Below are positions 8,682-38,276 of a stretch of 64,000 nucleotides of DNA, one piece after another (the first letter of the stretch is position 1; each line of letters begins with the position of its first letter). Source of the stretch: Lentibacillus jeotgali (GTDB lineage: Bacteria; Bacillota; Bacilli; Bacillales; Amphibacillaceae). Both the position numbers and the translations under genes were made by a program. The stretch lies in the NCBI RefSeq assembly GCF_000224785.1, contig NZ_AGAV01000007.1:124001-188000 (forward strand), in the 5' to 3' direction. The notes under the pieces are model-generated. The model was not told where the DNA came from. It was given only the letters and a program-made list of their open reading frames with translations, and did not search any database.

Positions 8682-9926
8682 ATGGCAAGAACATTAATTA
8701 AAAACGGATTATTGGTAGATGGCAATGGTGGCCAACCACAAACAGATTCGGTTGTCGTGACTGAAAATAACCGCTTGATTTATATTGGTCCTGAACAAGA
8801 CTATAATAAAAAAGGTGATGAAACGGTTATCGATGCAGAAGGCGGAACCATCCTGCCTGGTCTGATTGATTCACATGTTCACATGATGATGGAATATACA
8901 CCAGTTTCGGAAAAATTAACGACACCATTTTCGTATATGTATTATCAGGCAGCTAAGTATTTGGAAACGACGCTAAACACCGGGATCACATCCGTCCGAG
9001 ACGCGCTTGGTACGGATCGCGGCGTGAAGAAAGCTGTTCAGGACGGATTGATTAGCGGGCCGCGTCTGCAACTAAGCATTAATGCGTTAACGACCACCGG
9101 AGGTCATGGAGATGGTTATCAGGTTTCGGGTGATGTGATGGATCTATTGCCATCAGGTCACAGAGGTATGCCGGATGGACGTTGTGATGGTGTTGAAGAG
9201 GTACGCAAGAAAACACGTGAAATGCTGCGTGCCGGTGCAGAGGTGATTAAGGTCCATGCAACAGGTGGCGTCCTAAGCCCGACCGACCACCCAGAATTTA
9301 CTCAATTTTCCCCAGAGGAGCTGAAAGTCATTGTTGAAGAGGGCCGCTTTCGCAAGGGGACTACAGTTATGGCACATGCTCAAGGTGCAGAAGGAATCAA
9401 AAACGCGGTTAAAGCGGGAGTACATTCAATTGAACATGGTATTTTCCTGGATGATGAAGCGATTGAATTAATGCTTGAAAACGGAACTTATCTTGTCCCG
9501 ACATTACTTGCTCCAGTAGCAGTACTGGAAACAGCGGATGAAAAAGGCATGCCGGCATCAGCAGTCCAAAAGTCTAAAGAAGTAATTGAGCAGCATAAAA
9601 AAAGTATAGCTAAAGCTCATAAAGCAGGTGTCAAGATTGCAATGGGAACGGATGCTGGTGTCATGAAACATGGTACCAATTTGCGTGAACTTGGCTTAAT
9701 GGCAGACACTGGCATGAGCCCGATGGAAACGATTGTGGCCACAACGAAAACAGCCGCAGAATGTCTCGGCTGGGATGATCAAGTTGGTACACTAGAGGCA
9801 GGCAAATTAGCAGATATTGTTGTTGCGAAAGGCAACCCGCTTGACGACATTAATTCGCTGACAGACAACGATACAATCCAGTTGGTTATGAAAGATGGAA
9901 AAATCGAAAAAAATACAATAAGCTGA
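8682..9926 (+). CDS. metal-dependent amidohydrolase (imidazolonepropionase/prolidase-like)
   Basis: This 414-residue enzyme of the amidohydrolase superfamily shows the metal ligands: DSHVHMMM (His65, His67), a lysine in EVIKVHATGG (about 185) that is likely carbamylated, VMAHAQG, SIEHGIF, and the active-site Asp in MGTDAGV (about 322). The C-terminal LEAGKLADIVVAKGNPL stretch closes the composite beta-sandwich. It belongs to the group annotated as Xaa-Pro dipeptidase-like or aryldialkylphosphatase-related amidohydrolases; the substrate cannot be deduced. Ribosome site GAGGGGAGG is strong. It stands alone. Confidence 0.87.
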   Translation: MARTLIKNGLLVDGNGGQPQTDSVVVTENNRLIYIGPEQDYNKKGDETVIDAEGGTILPGLIDSHVHMMMEYTPVSEKLTTPFSYMYYQAAKYLETTLNTGITSVRDALGTDRGVKKAVQDGLISGPRLQLSINALTTTGGHGDGYQVSGDVMDLLPSGHRGMPDGRCDGVEEVRKKTREMLRAGAEVIKVHATGGVLSPTDHPEFTQFSPEELKVIVEEGRFRKGTTVMAHAQGAEGIKNAVKAGVHSIEHGIFLDDEAIELMLENGTYLVPTLLAPVAVLETADEKGMPASAVQKSKEVIEQHKKSIAKAHKAGVKIAMGTDAGVMKHGTNLRELGLMADTGMSPMETIVATTKTAAECLGWDDQVGTLEAGKLADIVVAKGNPLDDINSLTDNDTIQLVMKDGKIEKNTIS

Positions 9927-10103
9927 TTTAATGGATTTTAAGCAGCTTATATGTTTTGGAGTTGTTTTTAACGCGATAAGAAGTCGGCAGTGAGCTTAAT
10001 TCAATCGAGGGCGTTGAATTTTCAATCGAAAGACCTAAATTTCAATCGATACGGGATAAATTTGATCGAAAGGCACAAAAGGACAAGTGAGTACGGGGAA
10101 TCG

Positions 10104-10384
10104 TCGCGCGATCTCGTGCTATCCTCGCGCGAAATCCGGAGAGTGCCGCGCGACCTCGTGCCACCCTCGCGCGAAATCCGGAGAGTGCCGCGCGATCCCG
10201 TGCTATCCTCGCGCGAAATCTGGAGAGTGTTGCGCGATCTTGTGCTACCTTCGCGCGAAATCCGAAGAGTGCCGCGCGACCTCGTGCTACCTTCGCGCGA
10301 AATCTGGAGAGTGCCGCGCGATCTCGTGCTATCCTCGCGCGAAATCCGAAGAGTGTTGCGCGATTTTGTGCCACCGTCGCGCGA
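10104..10384 (+). repeat. tandem array: 14 NCGCGCGA-type octamers at exact 21-bp spacing
   Basis: The octamer TCGCGCGA (variants CCGCGCGA, TTGCGCGA) starts at 10104, 10125, 10146, 10167, 10188, 10209, 10230, 10251, 10272, 10293, 10314, 10335, 10356 and 10377, always 21 bases apart. The 13-base spacers alternate between two types, TCTCGTGCTATCC-like and AATCCGGAGAGTG-like, so the higher repeat is 42 bp. Because 21 is a multiple of three, frames stay open on both strands; these are not believable genes. A degenerate, inverted copy with seven octamers lies at 33731-33861 and shares both flanks. Confidence 0.95.
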
Positions 10385-10426
10385 TCGAACAACACAAAGT
10401 TTCGGTTGGGAGAAAAGCGAGGTACC
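10385..10426 (+). repeat. conserved right flank of the 21-bp array
   Basis: TCGAACAACACAAAGTTTCG and the following TTGGGAGAAAAGCGAGG are repeated, inverted and with few changes, at 33690-33731 beside the second array. The left flank GAGTACGGGGAAT (10089-10101) likewise matches GAGTACGAGGAAT beside the second array. This defines a mobile or duplicated unit larger than the array. Confidence 0.8.
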
Positions 10427-10469
10427 CAAAAAATGTGGTATGGTGCTTTACATAGGACTCATAATAGGC

Positions 10470-10502
10470 AAAAAACCGGGCTGTAATTGGCCCGGTTTTT
10501 TC
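10470..10502 (+). terminator. strong terminator downstream of the array
   Basis: AAAAAACCGGGC / GCCCGGTTTTTT, with short loop and six Ts. The nearest upstream plus-strand gene ends 540 bases earlier, so transcription through the array is possible. A decayed fragment of the 63.8-kb repeat (CCCCTGAATGAAGTTTTACTT) follows at about 10514. Confidence 0.8.
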
Positions 10503-10581
10503 TGATGGGAAATCCCCTGAATGAAGTTTTACTTAAATTCTTCAAATCGATTGTTTCATAGCATACCAAATGTTATTATGT

Positions 10582-10605
10582 GTTGGTGACTATAAATTTA
10601 CCAAC
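10582..10605 (+). promoter_or_regulatory. candidate operator of the TetR-type repressor
   Basis: GTTGGT (10582-10587) and ACCAAC (10600-10605) form an inverted repeat with a TATAAAT-like -10 between them, 34 bases before the tetR-type start. A third half site (CTGGTC) follows. Autoregulation is inferred from position. Confidence 0.4.
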
Positions 10606-10638
10606 AGTAACTAACTGGTCAAAAACAGGAGGATCTTA

Positions 10639-11505
10639 ATGACACAACGGCATGAAGAGCTTCTGGATGCTGCGATTCAGCTCTTTCAGAAAAGCGGTAT
10701 TCACGCTGTCTCTGTGGCTGATATTACGGAAGCGTGCGGGATATCTAAAGGTGCTTTTTATAAACATTTTGACTCAAAAGAAAACATGATACTGGAATTG
10801 CTGAAGCGGTATTATGATGAGATGTTCAGGGAAGCGGATCGGTTTACTGAAGAATTTAACCAGTCACCTTTAATGATACTAAAGCGAAAGATTACGATTG
10901 AACTCGAAAAATCAATCGAATACAGGTCGTTCTTTCTTGCTTTATTAACTGAATTCCCTCCGTATGAAAAGGGACCGATTCCTGAATTCCTTGATCGGAT
11001 ACAGCAGACACATCAGCAATGGCACAAACAGGCGTTATTGGATGCATTTGGTTCGAAGTCCAAGAAATATATGGATGATCTAACGCTTGTTCTGGAAGGA
11101 ATCCTTCATAGTTATTTAATGCAGATTATTTGGAAAGGGCCTGCTTTGCCTCTGGACAGATTGGGCGATTTTATTGCTGAATGTATAAAAGCGATCGTGG
11201 AAAATGATGAGGCCATATCACCGTTGCTTCCGGTATACTCTAATGCTGATTCTGAAGCTTCCATCTTAGAAATCATCGGCAATGACTTGCATACATTGCG
11301 GACAGAAATGAACACAGACCGTGCCCGCTACTCGCAAAAAGATTTACAAACAATCGATTTATTAATCGAAGAACTCACGCAAGAAAAACCAAGGGAATTT
11401 CTGGTCGATGCACTGCTTGCTCAACTGCATCGGCGTACTTATTTAAAAACTGGAATAACCAAAATAATGACATCATGGGAAGTATGGAAAGGGGATTTAA
11501 CATGA
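10639..11505 (+). CDS. TetR/AcrR-family transcriptional regulator
   Basis: This 288-residue regulator has an N-terminal helix-turn-helix (about 5-50: LLDAAIQLFQKSGIHAVSV..., recognition part GISKGAFYKHFDSKENM) and a long C-terminal ligand/dimer domain, larger than the usual ~190-220 residues. An extra ~90-residue helical tail ends it. The ribosome site is AGGAGG. The stop overlaps the start of the MFS exporter (ATGA), so this is a repressor-pump operon, probably de-repressed by a drug-like ligand. Confidence 0.9.
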   Translation: MTQRHEELLDAAIQLFQKSGIHAVSVADITEACGISKGAFYKHFDSKENMILELLKRYYDEMFREADRFTEEFNQSPLMILKRKITIELEKSIEYRSFFLALLTEFPPYEKGPIPEFLDRIQQTHQQWHKQALLDAFGSKSKKYMDDLTLVLEGILHSYLMQIIWKGPALPLDRLGDFIAECIKAIVENDEAISPLLPVYSNADSEASILEIIGNDLHTLRTEMNTDRARYSQKDLQTIDLLIEELTQEKPREFLVDALLAQLHRRTYLKTGITKIMTSWEVWKGDLT

Positions 11506-12974
11506 GTGATACAGCAACTTCCTGGGATTTGCCGCCAAAACAAAAAGGATTGATGATAGCGGCCTTGTTGACGGGCGCGTTTATGGGTATCATCAATGAA
11601 ACATTACTGGCAACAGCGCTCCCGACAATTCAGGATGCGTTCTCCATCTCACAGGGGGAAGTACAATGGATGACAACCGCATTCTTGATGACAAATGGGA
11701 TTATGATTCCTGTTTCAGCATTTCTGATTGACCGGTTTACAACCCGGGGATTATTTATAACTGCAATCGGCCTATTTGGTGCAGGCACCGCCATTGCGGC
11801 GATAGCCACTACATATCCGGTACTGCTGTTAGGGCGTGTTGTCCAGGCATCCGGATCCGGAATTATGCTGCCTCTTTTGATGACGGTGCTCCTGGCGGTC
11901 ATTTCGGTTGAACGCCGTGGTACCGCAATGGGGATGATTGGTATTGTGATTGCATTTGGACCGGCGATTGGACCGACATTGTCAGGCTGGCTATTGGAAC
12001 ATTTTTCATGGCGTTCGTTGTTTATTACGGTTCTTCCAATTGTAGCGGTAACCATTACTGTTGCGGCGCTTTTTCTGCGTAATGTGACTGACCTCCGAAA
12101 GCCAAAGATAGACGTACTATCGATTGTCTTGTCTTCAGTCGGATTCGGTTCATTCCTGTATGGATTCAGTATTGCATCAGAGAGCGGCTGGGGGAGCACT
12201 GTCGTTATCAGTGCTATCACCATTGGATTAGTGGTGATTGGTTTATTCATCTGGCGGCAGCTTATCCTGGACACCCCGATGCTAGAATTTAAGGTGTTCC
12301 AATTCCGGATTTTTACTCTGGCAATCGCTATCACGATGACGGTTCTGATTTCACTGATTGGGGCTGAAACATTGCTGCCGCTGTTTATGCAGAATGCGCT
12401 GGGATTCTCACCGTTGAAGTCCGGTATGATGCTCTTTCCGGGTGCAATTGTAATTGGAATTATGTCACCGATTACCGGGCGGCTGTTTGATAAGTTTGGC
12501 GCTAAATGGCTTGCGCTTATCGGACTCAGTATCGTCACTGTAACGACATTTATGTTTACCAGATTATCACTGGAAACATCATTTGCCTACTTGACGACAA
12601 TCTATGCGATTCGCATGTTTGGTCTATCGTTTGCATTAATGCCGGTGATGACATCTGCTTTGAACCAGCTTCCGCCAAAATGGTATGCGCATGGGTCAGC
12701 GATGGCTAATACCCTGCAGCAAATTTCCGCATCAATTGGAACAGCAATCCTTGTTACGCTTGTTGCAATGGGCACTAATAGTTTCGTAACAGATGGAAAC
12801 ACGTCACCGGAAATAGCTGGTAAACTGGCACAAGTGGTTGGATTTGAATGGGCGTTTATGGGCAGTACGATTCTTGCGTTTATCGCATTTATTTTGGCAT
12901 TATTTCTCCATCCGCCGAAAAAAGAAAAAGAAATCGTTCGGCAGATTCATGGGGAGCATGCTACTATGCGGTGA
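11502..12974 (+). CDS. MFS multidrug efflux transporter, DHA2 (EmrB/QacA) type
   Basis: This 490-residue transporter has 14 predicted membrane segments. DHA2 features are LLATALPTIQDAF near the N-terminus (motif D1-like), LIDRFTTRGLF (motif A) and the GPAIGPTLSGWLLEHFSWRSLF stretch (motif C). The start at 11502 has AAAGGGG upstream and overlaps the regulator's stop codon by ATGA; the upstream in-frame ATGs at 11475 and 11484 lie inside the regulator and lack a ribosome site. It likely exports lipophilic drugs by proton antiport. Confidence 0.9.
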   Translation: MSDTATSWDLPPKQKGLMIAALLTGAFMGIINETLLATALPTIQDAFSISQGEVQWMTTAFLMTNGIMIPVSAFLIDRFTTRGLFITAIGLFGAGTAIAAIATTYPVLLLGRVVQASGSGIMLPLLMTVLLAVISVERRGTAMGMIGIVIAFGPAIGPTLSGWLLEHFSWRSLFITVLPIVAVTITVAALFLRNVTDLRKPKIDVLSIVLSSVGFGSFLYGFSIASESGWGSTVVISAITIGLVVIGLFIWRQLILDTPMLEFKVFQFRIFTLAIAITMTVLISLIGAETLLPLFMQNALGFSPLKSGMMLFPGAIVIGIMSPITGRLFDKFGAKWLALIGLSIVTVTTFMFTRLSLETSFAYLTTIYAIRMFGLSFALMPVMTSALNQLPPKWYAHGSAMANTLQQISASIGTAILVTLVAMGTNSFVTDGNTSPEIAGKLAQVVGFEWAFMGSTILAFIAFILALFLHPPKKEKEIVRQIHGEHATMR

Positions 12975-19815: not shown

Positions 19816-19922
19816 TAATTGTGACAACTTGAGCGAAAAATTTGTGAACTTGAGCGGAGTTTGTGACAATTTGAGCCGATTTCATGATATTTAAGCCGAT
19901 TCTGTGACAGCTTGAGCCGATC
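19816..19922 (+). repeat. five tandem TGTGACAA-TTGAGCCGATT units, 21-bp period
   Basis: The (G/A)AGC core lies at 19831, 19852, 19873, 19893 and 19914 (spacings 21, 21, 20, 21). The best units read TGTGACAATTTGAGCCGATT and TGTGACAGCTTGAGCCGATC. A solitary copy lies at 5924-5945. The sequence is unrelated to the NCGCGCGA array, but the period is the same. Confidence 0.85.
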
Positions 19923-31399: not shown

Positions 31400-33424
31400 A
31401 TGAATAGAAGTTTACGGAATATAGTGCTGGCGGTTCTCACCTTTGGAGGGGGAGCCGTCCTTTTGTGCATACTGACATTTATACATATCAATCAGGGGAG
31501 TGTTTCGCTATCGCCAGGAACAGTTATTGACGCAATCATTGCTCCGGGTGATAACTTAGAGCACCATACTGTACGCATGTTGCGGCTGCCGCGTGCCATG
31601 ATGGGGGTTATCGCGGGCGGTACGCTTGCTGTTTCGGGGGTCGTCCTGCAAACAGTAACGCGGAACCCGCTGTCATCGGCCAGTACGCTGGGCATTCATT
31701 CTGGTACGTATTTTGCGGTTGTTTTCTGTACGGTGTTTTTTCCGGCAGCCTTGATCGGAAATGGCATTATTGCGGCATTCGCCGGTGGTGTGATGACATT
31801 TTTGATTGTGTTCACCCTCTCTGGCGGGAATAAGGCATCACCGGTCCGCATGGTGTTGGCCGGAATGATTGTGACGTTTCTGTTTTCATCACTGACGAGT
31901 GTCCTGCAGATTTTTTATGAAAATGAAACAGCCGGATTGTTTTTATGGGGATCCGGAACATTGGTGCAAAATGATTGGAGCGGTGTCCAATTCTCACTGC
32001 CGATTGTGGCAGCCGGACTTGTGGTTATTTTATTAATGACTTTCAAGATGGATACGCTTATGCTGGGCGATGATGTTGCGACCGCCTTGGGTCAGAATGT
32101 GCACACGGTTAAATTTATTGCAGTCGGGGCGGCTGTATTGCTGACGTCTGTTACTGTCAGCGTCGTTGGCCCGATTGGCTTTGTCGGTCTTGTCGCACCG
32201 CATATCATTCGGCTGATTGGCTATCGAAAACATTTGCCGCTTGTGATAGCGTCATTTATTTGGGGCGCTAATGTCCTGCTGTTTGCGGATGTTTTGGCAC
32301 GTTTTATTGATCCCTCCTTTTCCGAACTGCCTGTGGGTGCCATTACCGCACTTATCGGAGCGCCGTGGTTGATTTATCTGGTTATGCAGATGAAAGGGTC
32401 TAAATACGGGGATGAAAATACGTCCGTCATTGCCGGAAAAGTAACGGGAAAGATGTCGCTGAAAGTCATCATCCCTATTTTGGCCGCTATCATTTTTGCA
32501 ACGATGTTCGTCAGTCTGGCGTCAGGGAACTACGGGTTTGAGCCGGTTCTATTATGGAACGCACTGTTCGGGGGATCAGACGATTTTATGCTTGATCTTG
32601 TGATGGATTTGCGTTTGCCCAGGGCTTTGGTCGCCTTGGTCAGCGGCATGATTCTCGCTGTCAGCGGCTTGCTTTTTCAGGGCGTTCTGAGAAACCCGCT
32701 CGCAGATCCCTCGGTCATCGGAATTACTTCCGGGGCCGGCGTCGGTGCACTGCTGACGATGTATGTGTTCAGCCTCTCAGCCGTCTGGGTCCCGATCGGA
32801 GCCATGGCCGGTTCATTTGTGTTCTTCCTGTTTGTGATGCTTATGGCCACTCGGGCCCAGTTTAAGCCGACGATTCTTGCTCTGCTCGGTATCGGTGTCT
32901 CGGCCTTTGGCTCGGCGATCATCCAAATATTAGTTGTTGAGGCCGATATGGGCATTGCTTCCGCTTTAACGTGGCTGTCAGGTACAACATATGCCAGAGG
33001 CTGGTCGGAGCTCATTAATTTACTGATCTGGCCTATGCTCATTTTGATACCGTTATTATTCATGCGGATCCGTATTCTTGATACGCTATCACTTGGGGAT
33101 GACACAGCAAAAGGTCTTGGCGTCAATGTCATGCGAACACGATTTCAGCTTGCGTCAATAGCGACAATACTGGCAGCGTTTAGCGTGGCGGCAGTCGGAT
33201 CTATCGGTTTTATCGGATTGATTGCACCACACCTGTCACGGCTGCTTGTGGGCTCATCGAACCAAAGGCTGTTGCCTGTAACGATGCTCGTTGGAGGCGC
33301 CTTGCTTGTGATAGCTGACGCATTGAGCCGTACGCTTCTCGCACCAAATGAAATCCCATCCGGCATTTTGGTCGCCATTATCGGCGCGCCCTATTTCTTA
33401 TGGTTAATGCGAAAACGCGCTTAA
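31400..33424 (+). CDS. fused double FecCD-type siderophore ABC permease
   Basis: This 674-residue protein consists of two FecCD permease domains in one chain, each with about ten membrane segments. Both halves repeat the landmark LRLPRAM(V) with GG/SG-x-LAVSG (about 54-76 and 400-425) and the GFVGLVAPHIIR / GFIGLIAPHLSR coupling loop (about 258 and 594). B. subtilis homologues are usually two genes; the fusion is like E. coli FhuB. No ATPase gene follows: a terminator comes 28 bases later, so an ATPase must be supplied from elsewhere (in B. subtilis YusV does this for several systems). Confidence 0.92.
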   Translation: MNRSLRNIVLAVLTFGGGAVLLCILTFIHINQGSVSLSPGTVIDAIIAPGDNLEHHTVRMLRLPRAMMGVIAGGTLAVSGVVLQTVTRNPLSSASTLGIHSGTYFAVVFCTVFFPAALIGNGIIAAFAGGVMTFLIVFTLSGGNKASPVRMVLAGMIVTFLFSSLTSVLQIFYENETAGLFLWGSGTLVQNDWSGVQFSLPIVAAGLVVILLMTFKMDTLMLGDDVATALGQNVHTVKFIAVGAAVLLTSVTVSVVGPIGFVGLVAPHIIRLIGYRKHLPLVIASFIWGANVLLFADVLARFIDPSFSELPVGAITALIGAPWLIYLVMQMKGSKYGDENTSVIAGKVTGKMSLKVIIPILAAIIFATMFVSLASGNYGFEPVLLWNALFGGSDDFMLDLVMDLRLPRALVALVSGMILAVSGLLFQGVLRNPLADPSVIGITSGAGVGALLTMYVFSLSAVWVPIGAMAGSFVFFLFVMLMATRAQFKPTILALLGIGVSAFGSAIIQILVVEADMGIASALTWLSGTTYARGWSELINLLIWPMLILIPLLFMRIRILDTLSLGDDTAKGLGVNVMRTRFQLASIATILAAFSVAAVGSIGFIGLIAPHLSRLLVGSSNQRLLPVTMLVGGALLVIADALSRTLLAPNEIPSGILVAIIGAPYFLWLMRKRA

Positions 33425-33534: not shown

Positions 33535-33937
33535 TTGATATAAAATGCGACATGGTGAAAAATTTGTGTGCGATAATACCGCTTCGGAAATACACTTCGC
33601 TAAGTTTTGTTTACGGACTTTATATTTTACGACGGACAAAGCCCCGATTTCTCAACCATTAACCTAGCAGGAATACTTTTGCTGCCTGAATGACTCGCTT
33701 TTCTTCCAATCGAAGTTTTGTGTTGTTCGATCGCGTGAAGCTGGCACAAGGTCGTGTGGCGCTCTAAATTTCGCGCGAGGGTGGCACAGAATCGCGCGAC
33801 ACTCTTGAATTTCGCGCGAGAGTGGCACAGAATCGCGCGACACCCTCCAGATTTCGCGCGAGAGAATTCCTCGTACTCAGAAATCGTGAACAAAAAATAC
33901 ACTGTCATTACGTCGCAGTTTATGGACTTTGCGTCAA
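33535..33937. repeat. dispersed element with TATAAA(A/C)TGCGAC terminal inverted repeats, containing a 21-bp array
   Basis: The left end (AGTTGATATAAAATGCGACA, 33533-33552) and right end (ACGTCGCAGTTTATGGA, 33910-33926) are inverted copies over 12 of 13 core bases and match the ends of the element at 59095-59462. Inside lies CTTCGGAAATACACTTCGCT, found inverted in the other element, and the degenerate octamer array. No transposase is encoded. It fits a MITE-like or composite repeat. Confidence 0.7.
33731..33861 (-). repeat. degenerate second copy of the NCGCGCGA array
   Basis: Octamers related to TCGCGCGA start at 33731 (TCGCGTGA), 33752 (TCGTGTGG), 33771, 33792, 33812, 33833 and 33854: spacings 21, 19, 21, 20, 21, 21. 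It is inverted relative to the 10.1-kb array and shares both of its flanks (33690-33730 and 33862-33880). Confidence 0.88.
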
Positions 33938-33975: not shown

Positions 33976-35928
33976 TTATACCTTTTGCTGGCGGTCTTTG
34001 ATCCAGTTAATTAATCCGCCGCTCAGAATAACCTCACGCTGACGTTCAGATAGATTATGTTCAGCGATAATTTCATCGCCGCTGTCTGTCCGTGTCAGTT
34101 TGATGTTATCATTGTTTTTCACTTGGCTGCGCAGATCCTCAAAATGGAGTACTGCTTCTTTCTCAATTTTTTCATAATCGTCTTCATTCGTAAACTTAAG
34201 CGGCAGGACTCCGAAGTTTACAAGATTTTGCCAGTGGATGCGGGCGAAATCTTTTACAAGAACGACACGCAAGCCAAGGTAACGGGGGGCTAATGCAGCG
34301 TGTTCCCGGCTTGAGCCCTGACCGTAGTTGAGGCCGCCGACAATGGTATGGCCGGATTTTTCTTTTGTTACATTTGCTCGGTCCACATAAGTCGGGTCGA
34401 CATCTTCGTAAGTGAATTTACTGATTTCCGGCAGATTACTGCGGTATGGCAGCACACGAGCTCCGCCGGCAAGAATTTCGTCAGTGGATATGTTATCGCC
34501 GACTTTTAATAACACCGGTACATCCAATGTGTCCGGTAAACTATCCATAGCCGGAATGGATGCTATATTTGGCCCTTTAGCAAGCTCTTTTTTCTGTGCC
34601 TCTTCAGGCGGAAGCGGTTTTTCAAGCAGGCGGTCATCTACATTCGGCTCACTTGGATCAGTCACTTTTGGATAAGGGAAATTCATTGTTCTTGGGTCGG
34701 TAATCTCACCGGTTAATGCAGATACCGCTGCTGTTTCCGGACTGGACAGAAATACACTGTCTTCTTTTGTGCCCGATCTGCCCGGGAAGTTACGCGGTGT
34801 TGTCCGCAAGCTGTTACGTCCTGATGCAGGTGCCTGCCCCATGCCGATACATCCGTTGCAACCGGCCTGGTGAAGTCGGGCGCCCGACTGTAAGAGACTT
34901 GCAATATGCATCTCTTTCACCAGATTTGTAAGCATTTGTCTGGATGTCGGGTTGATATCGAATGATACGCCGGTTGCTATGTTCCGATCTTTTACAATTT
35001 CAGCCGCAATGGCAAAATCCCGGTATCCCGGATTGGCTGATGAACCAATATAAGATTGATAGATCGGGGTCCCAGCAAGTTCACGGGCTGGAACGACATT
35101 TCCGGGACTGGATGGCTTGGCGACCAATGGTTCCAATTCGGAAAGATTAATTTCTTCATGTATGTCATAGGCAGCATTATTGTCTGCGGTCAGTTCAACC
35201 CAGTCATTCTCGCGGTCCTGCATGCTCAAAAAGCGCTTGACTTCATTGTCTGAAGGGAAAACGGTGGCTGTTGCCCCAAGCTCTGCTCCCATGTTGGCAA
35301 TGACGTGTCGATCCATAGCTGTCAGGTCATCAAGTCCAGGACCGTAATACTCAATGATTTTTCCGACACCGCCTTTAACATCGTGGCGTCTGAGCATTTC
35401 CAGAATAACGTCTTTTGCACTTACCCAGTCAGGCAGCTTGCCGGTTAACTTGACACCCATCACTTCCGGCATTTTAATGTAAATCGGTTCACCGGTAATT
35501 GCCATGGCAACGTCTATTCCGCCGGCCCCCATTGCAAGCATGCCCATACACCCGTTGGCACATGTATGACTGTCTGAACCGAGAAGTGTCTTGCCGGGGA
35601 TAGCCAGCCGCTGCATGTGCACGGGGTGACTCACACCATTCCCGGGCCTTGAAAAGTGCAGACCGAAACGTTGTGCCGCGCTTTCCAGAAACAGGTGATC
35701 ATCCGGATTCTTGTTGTCTTCCTGTATTAAGTTATGGTCCACATACTGAGCTGAGGCTTCAGTTTTGGCGTAGTCCAGCCCCATTGCCTCCAGTTCCAGC
35801 ATGACCATCGTTCCGGTAGCGTCCTGTGTCAGAGTCTGATCGATTTGGAGACCAATCTCCGCGCCAGGTTTCATCTCACCGGATACAAGATGGTCCTTAA
35901 TTAATTTTTGTGTTACATTCAAAGCCAC
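33976..35928 (-). CDS. aconitate hydratase, short Aquifex type
   Basis: This 650-residue enzyme interconverts citrate and isocitrate through a 4Fe-4S cluster. GSDSHTCANGCMGMLAMGAGG (cluster Cys) is at about 115-135, AGCNGCIGMGQAP with the other two cluster cysteines is near 360, and the C-terminal swivel domain has GGLNYGQGSSREHAALAPRYLG. It is shorter than AcnA (~900 aa) and fits the 'aconitate hydratase, putative, Aquifex type' family. GTG start at 35928 with AAAGGAGG; an in-frame ATG 13 codons upstream has no such site. It may also act as a homoaconitase-like or 2-methylisocitrate enzyme. Confidence 0.87.
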   Translation of the reverse strand: MALNVTQKLIKDHLVSGEMKPGAEIGLQIDQTLTQDATGTMVMLELEAMGLDYAKTEASAQYVDHNLIQEDNKNPDDHLFLESAAQRFGLHFSRPGNGVSHPVHMQRLAIPGKTLLGSDSHTCANGCMGMLAMGAGGIDVAMAITGEPIYIKMPEVMGVKLTGKLPDWVSAKDVILEMLRRHDVKGGVGKIIEYYGPGLDDLTAMDRHVIANMGAELGATATVFPSDNEVKRFLSMQDRENDWVELTADNNAAYDIHEEINLSELEPLVAKPSSPGNVVPARELAGTPIYQSYIGSSANPGYRDFAIAAEIVKDRNIATGVSFDINPTSRQMLTNLVKEMHIASLLQSGARLHQAGCNGCIGMGQAPASGRNSLRTTPRNFPGRSGTKEDSVFLSSPETAAVSALTGEITDPRTMNFPYPKVTDPSEPNVDDRLLEKPLPPEEAQKKELAKGPNIASIPAMDSLPDTLDVPVLLKVGDNISTDEILAGGARVLPYRSNLPEISKFTYEDVDPTYVDRANVTKEKSGHTIVGGLNYGQGSSREHAALAPRYLGLRVVLVKDFARIHWQNLVNFGVLPLKFTNEDDYEKIEKEAVLHFEDLRSQVKNNDNIKLTRTDSGDEIIAEHNLSERQREVILSGGLINWIKDRQQKV

Positions 35929-36099
35929 TGTATATCCTCCTTTGGAAATATCTATATAATAATCCATACCTCATAATAGGCATCATTAAACAAAAAAGAG
36001 ATCAACAATGCGTTAAAATTGTTACTTTGATCAGCTTAACGAGTGCTTGAACGAAGGGGAACACTGCGAAATGCAAGGATTGTATGGTCCGGTAAAAAG

Positions 36100-38090: not shown

Positions 38091-38165
38091 AGGATATATA
38101 AAGAATTGTTTGTAAACGATTTACCAATACGTTATAATACAAGTAGCAAAAAAAGCATAATTAAG

Positions 38166-38262
38166 AAGCCTGCAGGGGGAGCCGTTTGGCTGAGAGTGAA
38201 CAGGTTGCTGTTCTGACCCTTCGAACCTGTTAGTTAATACTAGCGCAGGAATGGTGGCTTTT
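38166..38262 (+). ncRNA. TPP riboswitch (THI element)
   Basis: GGGGAGCC...GGCTGAGAGTGAACAGG...TGACCCTTCGAACCTG...AGTTAATACTAGCGCAGG contains the conserved thiamin-pyrophosphate aptamer segments, closed by AAGCC / GGCTT. It precedes the thiamin transporter gene thiT. A candidate terminator stem (AGCAGTG ... CATTGCTTTTTTT, about 38277-38332) would form the off state. Confidence 0.93.
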
Positions 38263-38276
38263 TTGATGGAATAGAT

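Follow-up and report, generated by a model that had tools for sequence, protein, structure and literature searches.

Direct repeats about two helical turns apart are a familiar feature of plasmid and phage origins, where such iterons are bound by the initiator on one face of the DNA. The Lentibacillus arrays described here are likewise direct repeats about two turns apart, dispersed over a bacterial chromosome. Dispersed bacterial repeats of no known function, such as the STAR elements, are an old puzzle. In the sections of the STAR description drawn on here (PMC3532100), the Staphylococcus elements are GC-rich intergenic direct repeats with one 14-bp consensus, T(G/A/T)TGTTG(G/T)GGCCC(C/A), and spacers of roughly 40-44 bp. 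Both strands of 77 Lentibacillus stretches (1,326,722 bases) were free of matches to this consensus. IS200/IS605-type elements are known to use the lagging-strand template, according to the consulted part of PMC6006769. Among the papers listed by a literature search with TCGCGCGA, the unit words and word combinations, which covered few subscription papers and preprints, none described the arrays.

A phased array of octamers in the window

The window, a stretch of 64,000 nucleotides of the Lentibacillus jeotgali genome (contig NZ_AGAV01000007.1, positions 124,001 to 188,000), contains the following arrays and neighbouring genes.

8682..9926, plus strand: upstream gene of the amidohydrolase family (PF01979, E 1.7e-60)
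9999..10069, plus strand: small adjoining array with a different core, TTCAATCG, three copies at steps of 21 and 20 bp (found by script)
10083..10103, minus strand: opposite flank of the window array, with the common word TCCTCGTACTCA at 1 mismatch
10104..10384, minus strand in the sense WWTCGCGCGAS: phased array (the window array) of 14 octamers at 21-bp steps, with 13-bp spacers of two alternating types
10385..10440, minus strand: flank common to other composite arrays of the source genome, with the words AAGTTTTGTGTTGTTCGA and CTCGCTTTTCT at 2 and 1 mismatches, in a 130-bp flank
10639..11505, plus strand: downstream gene for a TetR-type regulator (PF00440)
11475-12974: MFS transporter gene after the TetR-type gene (PF07690)
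19829..19919, plus strand: array with five cores, TTGAGCGA/TTGAGCCG, spaced 21, 21, 20 and 21 bp
33731..33861, plus strand: second TCGCGCGA array of the window, five perfect octamers at steps of 21, 20, 21 and 21 bp

A re-scan bore out the 14 octamers that had been predicted to start at 10104 + 21k, and all 13 steps measured 21 bp with zero slip. The octamer itself was less uniform than originally described: 12 of the 14 copies fit NCGCGCGA, while those at 10230 and 10356 read TTGCGCGA. In full, the array contains eight TCGCGCGA, four CCGCGCGA and two TTGCGCGA. The two alternating spacer types and the higher period of 42 bp were also recovered. The seven odd spacers are 75% alike and the six even ones 92%, whereas odd and even spacers share 26% identity. 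Since odd and even spacers are unrelated, the copied unit in this array was 42 bp. That unit already contained two octamers at a distance of 21 bp, so the 21-bp phase predates the copying. The pattern of octamer pairs at 21 bp matched 16 times in the window and never in 100 dinucleotide-preserving shuffles; these matches are 10 rows in the window array and six in the array at 33.7 kb, and both strands may match one place.

Four ORFs of 117-171 aa span the window array. None had a Pfam match at E 0.001, and the 20-bp steps of sister arrays would break their frames. We therefore rejected a coding origin and regard the ORFs, as the original prediction did, as by-products of a stop-free 21-bp unit. 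The array is classed as composite on account of its shared flanks, a class to which 42 of 2000 random window positions were also assigned. Fork direction at the array is plus, as inferred from GC skew and gene strand bias, and the array reads against the fork. Beside it, a terminator scan of 9900-10660 found none; a hairpin followed by T was seen by eye near 10470.

By eye, TTGATCGA sits about one step past the three copies of the 9999..10069 array, as a fourth copy. In the second TCGCGCGA array of the window, TCGCGTGA precedes the five perfect octamers by 40 bp. This array is flanked by a FecCD gene (31400-33424) and a convergently oriented aconitase gene (33976-35967), and it reads with the inferred fork.

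Intergenic arrays across the source genome

The source genome, of the genus Lentibacillus, spans 3.78 Mb in 31 contigs. It contains 94 TCGCGCGA-N12/13-TCGCGCGA pairs, a count that takes in one segment found twice in the assembly (contigs C13 and C14), versus no match for the reversed control. C13 and C14 share 8001 identical bases at a constant offset, and the assembly seems to hold this segment twice. We mapped 32 TCGCGCGA arrays, which are intergenic: none lies inside an accepted gene, although one runs into the end of an ORF of 121 codons. Read in one sense, their units are mostly WWTCGCGCGAS-like. They comprise 207 cores, 150 of them perfect. Their 175 steps measure 21 bp in 156 cases and 20 bp in 14, with two of 19 bp, two of 22 bp and one of 18 bp. 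The 32 arrays looked richer in convergent sites; the ORF calls were crude, so this was not relied on.

The core is kept where the spacers differ. Among arrays whose spacers could be aligned, spacers diverge by 18-50% and cores by 4-8%, the latter range being an underestimate, since the core itself served to find the arrays and to walk along them. The spacers are not wholly free, as their positional bias indicates: position 1 is mostly G/C, position 2 a purine, position 7 mostly C, position 11 mostly A and positions 12-13 A/T. Arrays L149 and L153 have the same spacer order at 60% spacer identity. Spacers thus drift, and we rejected a CRISPR-like capture of unrelated spacers. Composite arrays have flanks in common, which indicates that arrays were copied together with their flanks. 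The original prediction had offered selection for phase or recent expansion. Phase-locking is well supported, and local expansion also took place, as shown by the 42-bp units of the window array and by identical tandem units in several other arrays.

Two further repeats were seen near these arrays. A hairpin word like GATTTTCGGCAGTTGCCGAAAATC, perhaps a dispersed terminator, stands beside the arrays in L144, L150, L151 and L152 (by eye). A dispersed repeat of about 440 bp (L153:7272-7710, on contig C17) has very many partial copies among the matches listed, in four congeners. It apparently belongs to an intergenic repeat family distinct from the arrays, and fragments of it are found in the FecCD-aconitase interval of genomes G002 and G008 as well (by eye).

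The phase is constant while cores vary

Pairs of TCGCGCGA (N12/13) occur in 12 of 100 relatives, and their number per genome ranges from 0 to 151 within the genus. One relative, G006, shares an array with L. kapialis. AACTYGNGC pairs occur in 26 of the 100; the reversed control gave five matches in two of these genomes and none in the source genome. We also scanned 864 kb of six congeners without specifying a core, requiring three copies of any 8-mer at an exact period between 10 and 60 bp, where adjacent copies could differ at no more than one position. This returned 11 arrays at 20 bp, 20 at 21 bp and 11 at 42 bp, with five at 40 bp and two at 41 bp; every other period gave 0 to 6 arrays (six at 60 bp, four at 18 bp). 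A second scan (four linked copies, 1-bp tolerance) placed arrays at centres of 19-22 bp, three at 26 bp and some at 30-34 bp. Most of those at 32-33 bp came from a single CRISPR-like array. In this array, met by the periodicity scan at L233:9447-12600 of genome G005, TTATATCCCACTAT recurs every 64-66 bp; it is plainly of another class than the 20-21-bp arrays.

Arrays with at least four cores numbered 27, of which 23 were in congeners, and four in 300 kb of 15 other genomes; 50 kb of E. coli had none. The 130 single links in these arrays all measured 20 bp (48) or 21 bp (82), with 19 and 22 bp allowed. Outside long ORFs lie 25 of the 27, and the window array, with its own ORF, is one of the other two. 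The cores include AACTYGTGCGA, AATCGAGCGA, CTACAGCG, ACTTCAGCCG, GGTTGATA/TATCAACC and AGTTGAGA. Several core types occur in one genome, and the source genome has other families besides its at least 32 TCGCGCGA arrays. This number of arrays gives no support to a partition or ori/ter site in the strict sense; a nucleoid/partition-type site had been one option of the original prediction. Many cores resemble AACTYGNGCGAG and, judging from an alignment by eye, may form one superfamily with TCGCGCGA. Cores vary between arrays and species, and the 20-21-bp phase holds whatever the core. Because relatives keep this step with other cores and spacers, the arrays are neither randomly spaced there nor the slippage product of a single strain, the two outcomes that had been named as counting against the prediction.

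At two array sites of the source genome, a script found no array in four congeners (2/2 sites), so single arrays do not persist for long. By eye, the FecCD-aconitase interval of G003 contains a 20/21-bp array with the core GGTTGAT. In the corresponding 900 bp of the other congeners, a CGCTGTAG array of G007, located beyond another ORF, was the sole array seen. More distantly, the matches listed include related arrays in Virgibacillus, Oceanobacillus, Ornithinibacillus, Halobacillus and Fictibacillus, from a search that imposed the step and in which many other matches were high-GC genomes. Also among the matches listed, with the step again imposed, are 21-bp TCGCGCGA arrays in Nostoc (L092:3967-4016), Prevotellaceae (L103:4736-4911) and Odoribacteraceae (L087:4852-4943) records.

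The gene contexts of 30 core-blind arrays (38, minus five in ORFs and three at stretch ends) were as expected from intergenic length. They thus suggest no regulatory target, and we rejected a gene-context preference. A phage or plasmid origin was also rejected, as no matches to the array repeats were found; one viral contig holds one AACTTGTGCG pair.

Many arrays are oriented with the replication fork

Forks were placed by dnaA and dif and checked by GC skew. The dif site was exact in G005, had three mismatches in G011 and was not found in G007, where the terminus lies between 0.9 and 1.1 Mb; 1.0 Mb was used, and one array locus lies close by at 0.93 Mb. Strand counts of AACTYGNGC pairs were lopsided in the source genome (132:10), G010 (3:144) and G009 (97:3), and not in G002 (15:14) or G007 (8:12). 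Relative to the fork, 39 of 44 AACTYGNGC loci read with it (6/7 in G007, 23/26 in G005 and 10/11 in G011), although 44 exceeds the number of independent events because the loci cluster regionally. The words of these arrays are on the leading strand. The arrays crowd on one arm, at 1.08-1.31 and 1.55-1.79 Mb of C1 in G005 and at 3.16-3.54 Mb of C1 in G011. By dnaA direction this is the left arm in both genomes, and the distance to the origin is about 0.1-0.85 Mb. Of the five exceptions, three fall, by eye, in a AACTTGAGC..TGTGA subfamily, one more locus of which (G007, 14k) reads with the fork. At the 14 AACTYGNGC array loci sampled in the 66 stretches below, the flanking genes face either direction, and at one locus both run against the fork, so the orientation of these loci is not simply that of the genes.

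Polarity belongs to the arrays and hardly to single words. Over 66 stretches, AACTYGNGC array copies numbered 83 with the fork and none against, as compared to 24 and 18 for single copies; the window had been picked for its array and 24 stretches for TCGCGCGA arrays, and G011 L212, at the origin, was left out. Single WTCGCGCGAS words (four with, three against) and CTYGWGCGA words (12 and five) gave small numbers.

The TCGCGCGA arrays differ between genomes. In G007 (strain CBA3610), all 14 TCGCGCGA loci read with the fork, five on one arm and nine on the other (p 1e-4), counted without the 549k TCGCGCGA rows, which match both strands. In G005 these arrays showed no polarity: most loci match both strands and are unreadable, and the five readable ones, which stand outside the 39/44 and 14/14 counts, were two with, two against and one conflicting. 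One TCGCGCGA locus in G003, also outside those counts, reads against the fork, and the GGTTGAT arrays L201, L238 and L241 of the same genome read with it (by eye). For the source genome, the fork was taken as plus on all sampled stretches but L284 on the basis of GC skew, which is slightly negative in L142 and L162. On this footing, its plain TCGCGCGA arrays numbered 17 with and three against (p 0.003), and its composite arrays, the window array included, three with and nine against (p 0.15). Polarity is therefore true for much of the array set, and not for the window array that prompted the study.

Phased rows as putative binding platforms

The phase persists where cores differ, the core persists where spacers differ, and polarity marks rows and hardly single words; together these features point to duplex DNA read by a directional row of protein. 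We suggest that the arrays are phased, polar binding platforms for a putative protein, and we give this reading a probability of roughly 40%. The window array is one member of a large intergenic set in which a short asymmetric site recurs every two helical turns. Under the proposed mechanism, a sequence-specific protein may occupy one core after the next on the same side of the helix, forming a row that would have a direction. The row, and not the single site, would matter to something moving along the chromosome, such as the replisome or a translocase, and its effect on that machinery could be what makes rows in the wrong orientation rare in some families. The variety of core types would reflect either joint change of site and protein or the existence of several related proteins. 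Unequal exchange involving one or two units would lengthen the rows, which would also be copied to other intergenic places. As to the cooperative one-face platform of the original prediction, the phase-locking on which it depended held up (156/175 steps of 21 bp in the source genome, 130/130 core-blind links at 20/21 bp), while its binding protein is putative. A broader version is more speculative and, in our view, rather unlikely: that a Bacillaceae clade has chromosome-wide, direction-marking nucleoprotein rows, in which a fast-evolving DNA-binding protein or family occupies phased intergenic sites and the fork orientation of most rows is part of the mechanism, the rows serving, for instance, as polar barriers to the fork or as signals of arm direction.

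A close rival to the binding platform, and a quite possible one, is a self-spreading intergenic repeat superfamily without host function. It would expand by fork slippage, or travel in single-stranded form via the lagging-strand template, in one orientation only, and the core would be what the spreading process needs. A fork-dependent expanding repeat accounts for polarity and turnover as well, in keeping with polarity that sits in arrays and not in single words, with TCGCGCGA pair counts that range so widely within the genus, with tandem units that are identical in several arrays and with composite arrays copied along with their flanks. IS200/IS605-type elements offer a precedent in their use of the lagging-strand template (PMC6006769, the part consulted). 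However, self-spreading gives no reason for a strict 20-21-bp step between unrelated spacers, and no phage or plasmid copies were found. The Y1 transposase PF01797 has one match in the source genome and none in G003 and G011, which both carry arrays, and we rejected a link to it (REP with RAYT). Ordinary minisatellites, in which 20-21-bp tandem duplications decay and nothing is selected, would fit the arrays that are perfect repeats, such as the six 20-bp units at 439k of G001. We passed simulated, uniformly decaying 20/21-bp repeats through the same detector. Among repeats with a core identity of at least 0.85, the share with a spacer identity of at most 0.5 was 1%, 23% and 52% at 10%, 20% and 25% change, respectively; since uniform decay yields low spacer identity in short arrays, the core-spacer contrast of a single short array is weak evidence. 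Yet the same simulation (10-20% change, indel ratio 0.1) produced 8-14% of links at 19/22 bp, against 0/130 observed. Considering also that the unrelated odd and even spacers of the window array preclude a 21-bp duplication as the source of its phase, that one core occurs at 32 places with differing spacers and that fork orientation is left unexplained, we regard minisatellites as improbable.

Two functional alternatives seem less credible still. That the words mark direction for a DNA translocase, as KOPS does with FtsK and SRS with SpoIIIE/SftA, is suggested by the asymmetric eight-base words on the leading strand in AACTYGNGC arrays. KOPS and SRS are dispersed singles, whereas single AACTYGNGC words are hardly skewed, and the AACTYGNGC loci crowd in part of one arm in G005 and G011 and not towards dif, which makes this explanation very unlikely. 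An RNA element, acting through hairpins or a repeated protein-binding word in transcribed arrays, would suit the self-complementary TCGCGCGA, and the 33.7-kb array (z -3.5) and a CTCGAG-type array (z -2.4) do fold better than shuffles. The other 8/10 arrays tested do not, the window array among them (z -0.1). Other cores of the same phase are not self-complementary, and single-stranded RNA needs no 20-21-bp step, so there is equally little chance that the arrays act as RNA. At the gathering score, Rfam found nothing at the arrays in the window and seven array loci, and four riboswitches elsewhere. A TPP riboswitch lies at 38165-38268 of the window (Rfam).

Comparison with known repeat systems

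Two measurable constraints meet in these arrays: the two-turn spacing, whatever the core, and, for part of the set, an orientation with the replication fork that arrays show and single sites hardly do. Either a protein reads the rows, whose direction then matters for the chromosome, or the repeats expand in a strongly fork-dependent way. Both readings are testable in one culturable species with a complete genome.

Unlike iterons, the Lentibacillus arrays occupy at least 32 chromosomal places over the genome, with no link to the origin and no cluster at an origin beside a rep gene. With REP/REPIN and IS200/IS605 they share a dispersed intergenic distribution, and the lagging-strand use described in the consulted part of PMC6006769 could give orientation; unlike in REP/REPIN, their cores do not all share a hairpin. 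As portrayed in the portion of PMC5294841 used here, CRISPR and false-CRISPR tandem repeats also combine a conserved repeat with differing spacers of nearly fixed length. CRISPR has longer repeats and unique spacers, whereas these arrays have an 8-10-bp core and recurring, drifting spacers of 12-13 bp. KOPS and SRS, in the relevant part of PMC5357621, are eight-base words oriented by replication, dispersed as singles that are skewed on their own. The arrays too consist of eight-base words, with a fork orientation in some families and genomes but not in the composite arrays of the source genome or the TCGCGCGA loci of G005 and G003; where it occurs, rows are oriented and singles hardly so. The STAR elements, as far as the sections cited at the outset describe them (PMC3532100), come close in several respects: both are interspersed intergenic direct repeats with locus-specific spacers, GC-rich, found at differing places in each species, subject to local expansion and contraction, and of a function that is not known. 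The Lentibacillus arrays differ from STAR in having 8-10-bp cores of several types, 12-13-bp spacers and 20-21-bp steps in a two-turn phase, and in being oriented with the fork in part of the set.
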